From assembly GCA_015056925.1 (NCBI GenBank), contig SVFJ01000013.1, positions 1 through 53,412 on the forward strand: a stretch of DNA of 53,412 nt, given 5' to 3'. Below, piece after piece: positions 2,007 to 23,210 of the stretch (the first letter of the stretch is position 1; each line of letters opens with the position of its first letter). The notes beneath the pieces were generated by a model. That model was given only the letters and a program-made list of their open reading frames with translations. It did not search any database and had not been told where the DNA came from. The position numbers were made by a program, and so were the translations under genes. Origin of the DNA: Lachnospiraceae bacterium. Lineage in GTDB: Bacteria > Bacillota > Clostridia > Lachnospirales > Lachnospiraceae.

Positions 2007-2267
2007 ATGATTCAAAAATCTATGACAATCCATTTAGATAATGGATTAGAGGCAAGACCGGTAGCTGTATTTGTACAGGTAGCCAGCCAGTACGAGAGTT
2101 CAGTTTTCGTAGAGGTAGAGGATAAGAAGGTCAACGCGAAGAGCATTATGGGTATGATGAGCCTTGGACTTGATAATGGTGAAGAGCTCACAGTGGTTGC
2201 AGACGGCTCTGATGAGGCAGATGCTATCGCACATATCGAGAGATTTTTAAACGGACAGGATGAATAA
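2007..2267 (+). CDS. crh: Crh-like HPr-family protein (Glu15, Ser46)
   Basis: 86 aa HPr fold. The normal PTS active-site histidine in GL-H-ARP is replaced by glutamate (GLEARP, Glu15), so it cannot carry PTS phosphate on His15. The HPr kinase target serine is kept (KSIMGMMSLG, Ser46). That combination is the hallmark of Crh, the catabolite-repression HPr of Bacillus, which has Gln15 and sits in the same cluster as yvcJ and yvcL. Predicted role: after Ser46 phosphorylation by HprK it acts as CcpA co-repressor. A strong ribosome site AGAGGAGG lies upstream. It could also have been annotated simply as HPr; the residue-15 change argues against a PTS role. Confidence 0.85.
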   Translation: MIQKSMTIHLDNGLEARPVAVFVQVASQYESSVFVEVEDKKVNAKSIMGMMSLGLDNGEELTVVADGSDEADAIAHIERFLNGQDE

Positions 2268-2274
2268 GACATAT

Positions 2275-2304
2275 AAAAAAACTCCGCAGCATGCGGAGTT
2301 TTTT
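2275..2304 (+). terminator. Terminator after crh
   Basis: Perfect stem ACTCCGCA / TGCGGAGT with loop GCA, flanked by six A on the left and six T on the right. It can work in both directions, and it ends the rapZ-whiA-crh operon. Confidence 0.9.
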
Positions 2305-2336
2305 ATTTCATAAATTCGGGTTTGCATGAGCCATGC

Positions 2337-2438
2337 ACATCTATGTCGAATAGTCTGTGGGAGCTTGCTCACAAACAGACATATTCGTGCATAGATGTAT
2401 ACGGCGACGCCGTTCGATGAACAAGCGCCGTAGGCGCT
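2337..2438. other. Hairpin cluster in left part of the structured element
   Basis: A nearly continuous hairpin occupies 2337-2398: ACATCTATG/CATAGATGT, then CGAATA/TATTCG, GTCTGT/ACAGAC and GAGC/GCTC around a TT loop. It is followed by ACGGC/GCCGT around GAC (2401-2413) and AGCGCC/GGCGCT around GTA (2424-2438), the latter nested inside a TCGAT/ATCGA pair. The two homologous units do not contain this part. Confidence 0.6.
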
Positions 2439-2480
2439 GTGAATCGAGCATGCGAATGCAATGTCGAGCTAACGGACGGC

Positions 2481-2746
2481 ACTCTGCCCTTCTCCACGAA
2501 ACGGTCTATGGTTTAACACAAAAGTAGACGCTACGAGTAAAGTTTTTCTAAGCGTTTTTATTTAGGGAGTCTAAGACATACGCAACCGACACATATTCGG
2601 CGTCCATGCCTCACTATGTGTCTGCCGCCTTCATCCAAGCGGCGGCTTGCTATATACTCTAAAAACACCAAGAAAAACTAGCTACTCTCCGCAATACTTT
2701 TGCTTATAAATCCATAGACCTTTTCTGTTGTGGAGAAGGGCAGAGT
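2481..2746. ncRNA. Structured unit 1 (putative RNA, plus orientation)
   Basis: Outer stem: 17 bp perfect (2481-2497 with 2730-2746), continued by GAAA/TTTC and GGTCTATGG/CCATAGACC (2503-2511 with 2712-2720). A large internal loop follows, then a second stem AGTTTTTCT/AGAAAAACT (2541-2549 with 2671-2679) extended by a T5/A5 helix. A multibranch region carries hairpin A (GACACATA/TATGTGTC, 2588-2622) and hairpin B (GCCGCC/GGCGGC, 2624-2646). Hairpin A's 18-nt loop matches unit 2 in 17 positions. A T-run at 2769-2774 after a weak 5-bp hairpin (2743-2766) might terminate a plus-strand transcript. Confidence 0.5.
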
Positions 2747-2787
2747 TCCTGTGTACATAATAACTCCGTTTTTTATTCGACGCACTA

Positions 2788-3021
2788 GGCGCAAGCCCTA
2801 ACAGGTTTCATGCAGAAAGCATTGCGTAGGGTGTTAGAGTTTCTTAGTGCTTTTAGAGTACATAGGAAACTGCCGACTGGACGGAGGCAGTAGGCGACAA
2901 TCTGAGGCATGGATGCCGAATCGTCGCCGGTTCCGTACGTAGAGGATACTTAAATAAAAGCACCTAGAAACTCTTAGCCCGAAGCTCTAGCTTTCGAATG
3001 AAACCTGTTAGGGCGGACGCC
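2788..3021. ncRNA. Structured unit 2, inverted divergent copy of unit 1
   Basis: The reverse complement of this unit aligns with unit 1 along its core. Outer stem: GCCCTAACAGGTTTCAT (2795-2811) with its exact complement 2998-3014, and GGCG/CGCC outside it. Second stem: AGAGTTTCT/AGAAACTCT (2836-2844 with 2966-2974), then GTGCTTTTA/TAAAAGCAC. Hairpin B': ACTGCC/GGCAGT with an 11-nt loop (2869-2891). Hairpin A': GGCGAC/GTCGCC (2893-2898 with 2923-2928), enclosing the conserved loop at 2903-2920. Stem sequences differ from unit 1 but pairing is kept, which is compensatory change. Confidence 0.5.
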
Positions 3022-3048
3022 GAGACACCTCGACAAACCCGAATTTGT

Positions 3049-3085
3049 AAAAAACATCGCATCTGCAATGCAGGTGCGATGTTTT
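3049..3085 (-). terminator. Terminator after fba
   Basis: Stem ACATCGCA/TGCGATGT with inner TGCA/TGCA. Read on the minus strand it is followed by a run of T (A-run 3049-3054 on plus). The plus-strand side also ends in TTTT, so it can act in both directions. Confidence 0.85.
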
Positions 3086-3113
3086 ATAAGTGTGCTGTAA
3101 AGCGCACGAGTTA

Positions 3114-4049
3114 TTAAGCTTTGTTTTCGCTTCCGAGTACGTTTGTAATCTTGTGAGCAACAAGAGCCTTAACGTTAGCACGACCAACCTTGAGATATTC
3201 TCTTGGGTCGAAAGCTGCAGGATTGTTGTATAATACTTCACGAACACCAGCTGTCATTGCAAGACGAAGGTCTGAGTCAATGTTAATCTTACATACAGCA
3301 CTTCTAGCTGCCTGTCTTAACATCTCTTCCGGAATACCGATAGCATCGTCAAGCTTACCACCATTAGCATTGATTGTCTTAACATACTCCTGTGAAACGC
3401 TTGATGCGCCATGAAGTACGATTGGGAAGTTAGGAAGACGATTGCTGATTTCGTCAAGGATATCAAAACGAAGCTGTGGCTTCTGACCAGGCTTGAACTT
3501 GAAAGCACCGTGGCTTGTTCCGATAGCAATAGCAAGGGAATCAACACCTGTCTTCTCAACGAACTCTTCAACCTCATCTGGATGTGTATAGCTAGCATCT
3601 TCAGCAGATACATTAACATCATCTTCAATACCTGCGAGCTGTCCAAGCTCACCTTCTACTACAACACCCTTTGAATGAGCGTAATCTACAACTCTTCTTG
3701 TTAATTCGATATTATCCTTAAATGAATGGTGAGAACCATCAATCATAACGGAAGTAAATCCGCCGTCGATACATGACTTACAGATTTCAAAATCTGCACC
3801 GTGGTCTAAGTGAAGTGCTACAGGAATATCATACTGCATTAAAGCTGCTTCAACGAGCTTTACTAAGTAATTGTGATTTGCGTAGTTTCTAGCACCAGCA
3901 GATACCTGAAGAACGATAGGAGAGCGAAGCTCACCAGCTGCTTCTGTGATACCCTGCACGATTTCCATATTGTTTACATTGAAAGCACCAACTGCATAGC
4001 CGCCTGCATATGCCTTGGCAAACATGTCTTTAGTAGTAACTAATGCCAT
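3114..4049 (-). CDS. fba: Class II fructose-1,6-bisphosphate aldolase (311-aa type)
   Basis: 311 aa zinc aldolase. The metal-binding LDHG is at residues 81-84, GSHHSF follows at about 106, the second histidine motif SHGAFK is near 178 and VLHGASS near 210. It reversibly splits fructose-1,6-bisphosphate into DHAP and glyceraldehyde-3-phosphate in the cytoplasm. It is monocistronic, with its own promoter, leader hairpin and terminator. A second class II aldolase (25303-26169, 288 aa) is only distantly similar, so either one may prefer another substrate such as tagatose- or other ketose-bisphosphates. The ribosome site AGGGATGG precedes the ATG. Confidence 0.9.
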   Translation of the reverse strand: MALVTTKDMFAKAYAGGYAVGAFNVNNMEIVQGITEAAGELRSPIVLQVSAGARNYANHNYLVKLVEAALMQYDIPVALHLDHGADFEICKSCIDGGFTSVMIDGSHHSFKDNIELTRRVVDYAHSKGVVVEGELGQLAGIEDDVNVSAEDASYTHPDEVEEFVEKTGVDSLAIAIGTSHGAFKFKPGQKPQLRFDILDEISNRLPNFPIVLHGASSVSQEYVKTINANGGKLDDAIGIPEEMLRQAARSAVCKINIDSDLRLAMTAGVREVLYNNPAAFDPREYLKVGRANVKALVAHKITNVLGSENKA

Positions 4050-23014: not shown

Positions 23015-23087
23015 CAGCTTCAATAAATATCTGTACAAAAAAGTATTTCATGCATGCAAATGGTTTGCATATTACATGAACATATAA

Positions 23088-23210
23088 CCTTCCCTGTCCT
23101 TTTGCCTGAGAGATTAGCATAATGCCTTGCCCCTTCGGCACCCACAAGTGAGCTTCTCCAGAGTTACATCCACTCACAGTTCCGTGTGGTTCTGCAAGCT
23201 TCCTATGTAT
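23088..23210 (-). promoter_or_regulatory. Glycine riboswitch (gcvT element)
   Basis: The minus strand shows the glycine aptamer consensus in order: CTCTGGAGAAGCTC, GTGCCGAAGGGGCAAGGC, then AATCTCTCAGGCAAAAGGACAGGG. Only one full aptamer is seen; the GC-containing hairpin 5' of it (about 23166-23205) may be the helper 'ghost' helix found with singleton glycine riboswitches. Downstream terminator at 22986-23014. Predicted to switch the symporter in response to glycine. Confidence 0.92.

Follow-up and report, generated by a model that had tools for sequence, protein, structure and literature searches.

Between two converging genes of a Lachnospiraceae bacterium lies a stretch in which two long hairpins with matching cores mirror each other, and the question is what these folds are, why they occur as an inverted pair, and whether they act as RNA or as DNA. 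The window analysed here is a whole 53,412-nt stretch of contig SVFJ01000013.1 (GenBank assembly GCA_015056925.1), and all positions refer to it. A preliminary description had placed the pair at 2481-3021, and its basic observation of two mirrored conserved folds is confirmed: the 17-bp outer stems are both perfect (inside inverted repeats I4 and I3), the earlier account of the inner stems and of hairpins A and B holds (repeats I5, I8 and I25, and computed folds), and folding is far beyond chance, with 0 of 200 shuffles of either unit being as good. The hairpin A loops share a block with identity at 17 of 18 positions (TGAGGCATGGAYGCCGAA), and their size, given earlier as 18 nt, is in reality 19 nt for the first unit and 24 nt for the second. 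The extent had to be enlarged, because the feature reaches out to a pair of 13-bp inverted ends that delimit an element of 735 bp (2312-3046), as judged from the inverted-repeat list and the comparison of copies.

The fold is not novel, because the Rfam family TwoAYGGAY (RF01731) matches both units over its full 168-position model, well above the cut-off of 43 bits; the Rfam search that had been named as the check for novelty thus shows the fold to be already catalogued, and the suggested new class of non-coding RNA is abandoned. AYGGAY-like terminal loops are present in two hairpins, strict for A in both units of the window and merely relaxed for B. This is therefore a known motif in a setting undescribed in the literature passages on it: those in PMC2864571, PMC4333381 and PMC11701678 make no mention of inverted pairs, high copy number, terminal repeats or mobility. 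The pair had also been called convergent; on the strand modelled by Rfam it is divergent, with unit 1 on the minus and unit 2 on the plus strand.

The layout is summarised in Table 1, in which the names hpr and aldolase are presumed from the respective protein sequences. The longest listed open reading frame fully within the element has 56 aa and overlaps the structures. No match to a sigma-70-type promoter was found at 2250-3120, where shuffled sequences average only 1.1 matches. Elsewhere in the window, a glycine riboswitch aptamer is located at 23084-23171 on the minus strand (55.6 bits).

Table 1. The element, its parts and its immediate surroundings.
Feature	Position	Strand	Remark
hpr (presumed)	2007-2267	+	Left neighbour, faces aldolase gene
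Terminator-like hairpins	2276-2304 and 3048-3088		Inverted repeats I11, I6; enclose the 735-bp element
Left terminal inverted repeat AAATTCGGGTTTG	2312-2324	none	Repeat I9; end motif recurs in other Clostridia records
Module resembling Clostridiales-1 RNA (RF01699), below cut-off	2322-2461	+	Near-identical stretches beside other copies
Unit 1, whole hairpin	2481-2746	-	17-bp perfect outer stem 2481-2497/2730-2746; fold z -13.2
Unit 1 core, TwoAYGGAY (RF01731)	2528-2694	-	92.4 bits
Unit 1 hairpin A loop CATGGACG	2601-2608	-	Fits CANGGANG (sequence)
Unit 1 hairpin B loop CTTGGATG	2632-2639	-	Off CANGGANG at the A (sequence and loop survey)
Spacer, 41 nt	2747-2787	none	Separates two divergent units; array there in some other copies
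Unit 2, whole hairpin	2788-3021	+	17-bp perfect stem 2795-2811/2998-3014; fold z -9.0
Unit 2 core, TwoAYGGAY (RF01731)	2822-2987	+	83.7 bits
Unit 2 hairpin B loop region CTGGACGG	2877-2884	+	Degenerate (sequence)
Unit 2 hairpin A loop CATGGATG	2908-2915	+	Fits CANGGANG (sequence)
Right terminal inverted repeat CAAACCCGAATTT	3034-3046	none	Repeat I9
aldolase gene (presumed)	3114-4049	-	Right neighbour, faces hpr

The window pair is one of many copies. Its own genome contains 43 TwoAYGGAY matches, 42 of which are above the cut-off; for 24 of them a contig end lies at most 750 nt away, in 23 of the 24 on the 5' side of the core, as expected if assembly halts within inverted pairs. Many of these copies have common inverted ends and form a few subtypes differing in their outer stems, and other copies have unrelated, equally long outer stems and are without those inverted ends. 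Neighbours within 1 kb are divergent in 6/6 cases in this genome and 16/16 in another genome, G030, and the total of 22/22, counted over the 43 own-genome matches and 101 listed of the 102 in G030, rules out convergent pairing. Full scans gave 102 matches in G030, 18 in G096 (a one-contig genome), 16 in G028, 12 in G140, 9 in G084 and 2 in G279. When 60 genomes including its own were searched, TwoAYGGAY was found in 12 of the 36 belonging to the genus of the window and in none of the 24 that represent other families of the order. Matches occur in 28 of the 291 genomes of an even, class-wide sample (above the cut-off in 20), with more than one match in 21 of the 28 even though at most nine candidates were scored per genome, and families of the class other than that of the window also show the core fold. 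Some copies carry tandem arrays of 51-53-bp hairpin repeats between the units (L019 2428-2725, L024 2404-2652 and L029 2433-2650); such spacer arrays differ in sequence among copies and are present in three of five pairs of this genome for which the middle was examined.

On the basis of copy number, divergent pairing and direct repeats in relatives, TwoAYGGAY probably forms the central part of small mobile elements that are non-autonomous. The element shares the traits of MITEs in being short and non-coding, in having terminal inverted repeats, which recur among copies, and in occurring as dispersed multiple copies. The test for direct repeats covered copies in which both ends could be recognised within the mismatch limit, which excluded two of the nine loci of G096 and seven of the 19 loci of G030; L084 was also left out. 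G096 has near-identical elements of 284-285 bp with CTGCAATTCGTAAT-like ends, and exact direct repeats of 8-10 bp flank five of its seven testable copies (one at a 1-nt offset); in G030, where the ends are GTAACAGTTCAGCC, repeats of 7-8 bp flank three of the 12 testable copies. As a control, none of 110 mismatched flank pairs from these two genomes reaches 6 bp. One G030 copy (L079 1222-1640) has a left unit without the core, and has kept the outer stem and a perfect 8-bp flanking repeat. For G030, where the ends start with GTAAC and the repeats are about 8 bp, IS66-type mobilisation may be considered a candidate.

Direct repeats were found at none of the five two-ended elements in the genome of the window and at none of 13 elements with similar ends that were picked by hand from other Clostridia records; one of these 13 (L244) holds a TwoAYGGAY core of 97.4 bits. 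Mobility is well supported in relatives and likely in the genome of the window. Elements of several kinds thus seem to carry the core, and the kind in the window seems to insert without visible duplication or to have lost it. The genome collection has 48 stretches with the end motif CTCGACAAACCCGAATTT, and the titles of 35 of these name Clostridia, Lachnospiraceae or Oscillospiraceae; a collection of this size should contain some matches by chance. Other uncultured Clostridia (L214, L219, L225, L226, L237 and L246) have elements of about 210-340 bp whose ends are similar and in which no TwoAYGGAY match exceeds the cut-off.

No empty site was found at the place between hpr and the aldolase gene; in three relatives, G020, G013 and G023 (loci L057, L058 and L059), an extra gene, presumably similar to a diacylglycerol kinase, follows hpr directly where the window has the element, so a clean empty-site comparison is not available. 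A search with the pattern of the G096 ends, allowing two mismatches, identified no transposase-bearing autonomous relative among the matches listed (none of which came from G096), and its counts against a reversed control (137 vs 89 in G000, 67 vs 66 in G030 and 125 vs 70 in G096) indicate that the pattern is too loose to use. The phage and plasmid collections contain no match to 2304-3050, and the 18-base end motif is not matched exactly in any of the viral contigs.

The loops of TwoAYGGAY read C-ANGGAN-G. In the passage of PMC6692469 on CsrA/RsmE, the published consensus is (A/U)CANGGANG(U/A), and the free positions of our loops vary while the fixed ones hardly do, which is the same pattern. 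Binding of CsrA to TwoAYGGAY has already been proposed from motif matching, according to a passage of PMC4333381. We surveyed 141 units, after dropping two of the 43 own-genome units (length below 120) and none of 58, 22 and 20 others. Two strict CANGGANG motifs were found in 84 units, three in 3, one in 53 and none in 1, and therefore at least one in 140/141 and at least two in 87/141, while 96% of mono-nucleotide shuffles had none. In the genome of the window only one strict loop is present in 38 of 41 units, hairpin B being degenerate, and each unit of the window pair likewise has one. The loop-to-loop spacing is 28-31 nt in 93 of the 96 units holding at least two relaxed loops. Within genomes, where families were restricted to clusters of at least five members with 60 nt upstream, the A and GGA positions of the loops are invariant in four of five families, and paired sites there vary by 3-16%.

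Occurrence of the csrA gene points in the same direction at the level of the class, where it was found in 24/28 genomes with TwoAYGGAY and 71/263 others (p 1.5e-9). The figures are 17/20 vs 78/271 (p 8.5e-7) when only carriers above the Rfam cut-off are considered, 21/22 vs 66/215 for genomes of good quality, and 20/20 vs 44/161 when counted by genus; all are raw counts that ignore shared descent and motility, genomes of one lineage not being independent. It should be noted that csrA may simply track motility. The genome of the window has one csrA, and within its genus the gene does not discriminate, being present in 33/36 genomes (12/12 carriers and 21/24 non-carriers). Four TwoAYGGAY genomes of this genus (G016, G019, G026 and G028) have 4-8 csrA-like genes, and the other 32 genomes have 0-3. 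In four TwoAYGGAY genomes of family f45 (G235, G277, G316 and G333; 80-95% complete) csrA was not detected, and 13 of their 15 surveyed units still have two strict loops.

Our best explanation, to which we assign a probability of roughly one half, is that 2312-3046 is a mobile MITE-like element carrying a CsrA decoy. It would be a small non-coding, non-autonomous DNA element in which two divergent TwoAYGGAY cores each tip a giant hairpin, and its copies would spread as DNA with the help of an enzyme, a view suggested by copy number, conserved ends and the direct repeats that flank copies in relatives only. The tip, once transcribed, would most likely present the CsrA dimer with as many as two C-ANGGAN-G hexaloops, set a fixed distance apart, and so titrate CsrA, as the loop consensus and the csrA association suggest. 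Among the functional readings we favour the decoy, with odds close to even, and for it we infer both transcription and CsrA binding. The long stems may stay complementary largely through a process with little G-U preference, possibly template switching during replication or selection on folded DNA. Several points speak against this explanation: the absence of direct repeats at the five own-genome elements and at the 13 with similar ends elsewhere, the lack of an empty site, the four carriers without detected csrA, the failure of csrA to discriminate within the genus, the single strict loop in most units of the genome of the window, the missing promoter match, and the small amount of G-U in the stems.

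The last point concerns what the compensatory changes mean. The earlier claim of such changes holds in number, since 26 of the 33 pairs of the consensus structure show two-sided changes among 26 dereplicated units, and is weakened as to what they imply, since the pattern, with little G-T, is untypical of RNA. Over all pairs on the Rfam strand, the G-T share is 3.2-3.4% in TwoAYGGAY and 11-12% in 6S and TPP. This low share is robust, and the exact ratio of G-T to A-C depends on alignment and structure: in the dereplicated core set it is 36:45, against 62:14 for 6S and 21:4 for TPP in the same pipeline, and in well-aligned pairs only it is 27:40, against 56:7 and 6:1, while the 33-pair consensus structure on alignment A1 gives 26:12 and helix P1 13:4. 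For the 6S control, 29 sequences (13 dereplicated) gave 62:8, and 18 chosen sequences (12 where dereplicated) were used for the pair-ratio and folding-strand tests; for TPP, 25 of 29 hits entered the pair ratios and 16 the folding-strand test. The reverse-strand fold of TwoAYGGAY gives 61:38, or 33:27 in well-aligned pairs, and the outer stems of 96 units give 184:240. Hairpin B shows 216 Watson-Crick cells, no G-T, no A-C and 12 others in 27 units, those out of 38 in which it could be located, these tallies being preselected because GGA and a paired closure were required (hairpin A was located in 37/38); the 141-unit loop survey is unbiased in this respect. Within families, 126 two-sided changes restore pairing, vs 80 one-sided changes to G-T and 75 to A-C, and there are also 108 one-sided transversions and 33 other double changes. 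Because the stems hold only about 3% G-U, the compensatory changes argue only weakly for an RNA. The pattern fits double changes made in a single step, e.g., by template switching, which a passage of PMC8794818 describes as a mutation able to do so, or selection on DNA.

These statistics underlie the main rival to the CsrA decoy, namely that the structure acts at the DNA level: the transposition machinery, or host proteins during transposition, would recognise a single strand in its folded form or the tip of a cruciform, the loops would be DNA-protein contacts, and the link with csrA would be a by-product of lineage or lifestyle. G-T is not clearly above A-C in the core, unlike in 6S and TPP, nor in the outer stems, hairpin B has neither mismatch, and the loops remain intact in the four genomes where csrA was not detected. 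This rival must be set against the excess of G-T under alignment A1 and in helix P1, the agreement of the loop and CsrA consensuses at fixed and free positions alike, and the strong csrA association across the class. It must also be set against folding stability, which is greater on the Rfam strand for 18 of the 26 cores (mean difference -1.7 kcal/mol per 100 nt, p 0.0035; 16 of 26 with 60-nt flanks, p 0.13) and on the sense strand for 9 of 11 units from other families (-3.1; controls -4.3 for 6S and -3.8 for TPP). This modest preference leaves room for an RNA, and we regard a DNA-level role as possible though doubtful.

An ordinary family of host non-coding RNAs with a housekeeping role, amplified by many duplications and with the inverted ends as incidental, appears distinctly improbable. 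Copies without the inverted ends of the window do lie beside genes (e.g., C106, C172 and C48), and the recurrence of the core fold in other families of the class would suit such a reading, but the direct repeats and conserved ends that border copies have already weakened it, and only a third of the genus (12/36 genomes) carries TwoAYGGAY, one genome has 102 matches, and pairing is strictly divergent. A cis-regulatory leader, favoured by the Rfam label 'Cis-reg' alone, is hardly tenable and is rejected by position and copy number, since the genes on either side of the window pair converge, which places it 3' of both, terminator-like hairpins occur within 75 nt outside 8 of 31 own-genome element ends vs 3 of 620 control windows, and the table of the discovery paper, in the part bearing on TwoAYGGAY, has 'n' for cis-regulation (PMC2864571).

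The preferred reading, a mobile CsrA decoy, can be compared with known systems. CsrA-titrating sRNAs of the CsrB/RsmZ type resemble the element in having ANGGAN loops closed by C-G; the TwoAYGGAY core differs from them in having at most two or three strict sites inside repeated elements, in that the window copy is without a promoter match, and in that putative CsrA binding is here read from sequence. A MITE with a minisatellite in Porphyromonas gingivalis, as described in passages of PMC4596501, is similarly short with inverted ends, and some of our copies also have a tandem array; the present element differs from bacterial MITEs with internal repeats in bearing a conserved branched tip on one or two giant hairpins. 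The module weakly similar to Clostridiales-1 RNA, inside the window element and beside other copies, stays below the cut-off, its 25.8 bits (E 0.0023) falling short of the gathering score of 48, as do all 11 matches of RF01699 in the same genome. Such modules lie within the element ends of several copies, including L017, L019, L027 and L033. With a G-T:A-C ratio of 40:18 and the sense strand more stable in 14/14 (not dereplicated), they look more RNA-like than TwoAYGGAY.

A more general proposal is that TwoAYGGAY is a transposable CsrA decoy whose copy number, from tens to about a hundred per genome, sets the level of free CsrA across csrA-bearing Clostridia, with hairpin complementarity kept at the DNA level and covariation not arising from selection on RNA; in this full form it is unlikely to hold. 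The share of G-T and the G-T:A-C ratio at covarying pairs offer a simple check to separate covariation born in DNA from that selected in RNA. In the present reading, a catalogued 'cis-regulatory RNA' of obscure role would become a mobile element with a candidate partner protein. A passage of PMC4333381 describes CsrB-type sponges as identified only in Gammaproteobacteria, and, if the reading is true, Clostridia would gain a counterpart to them that has been spread via transposition.
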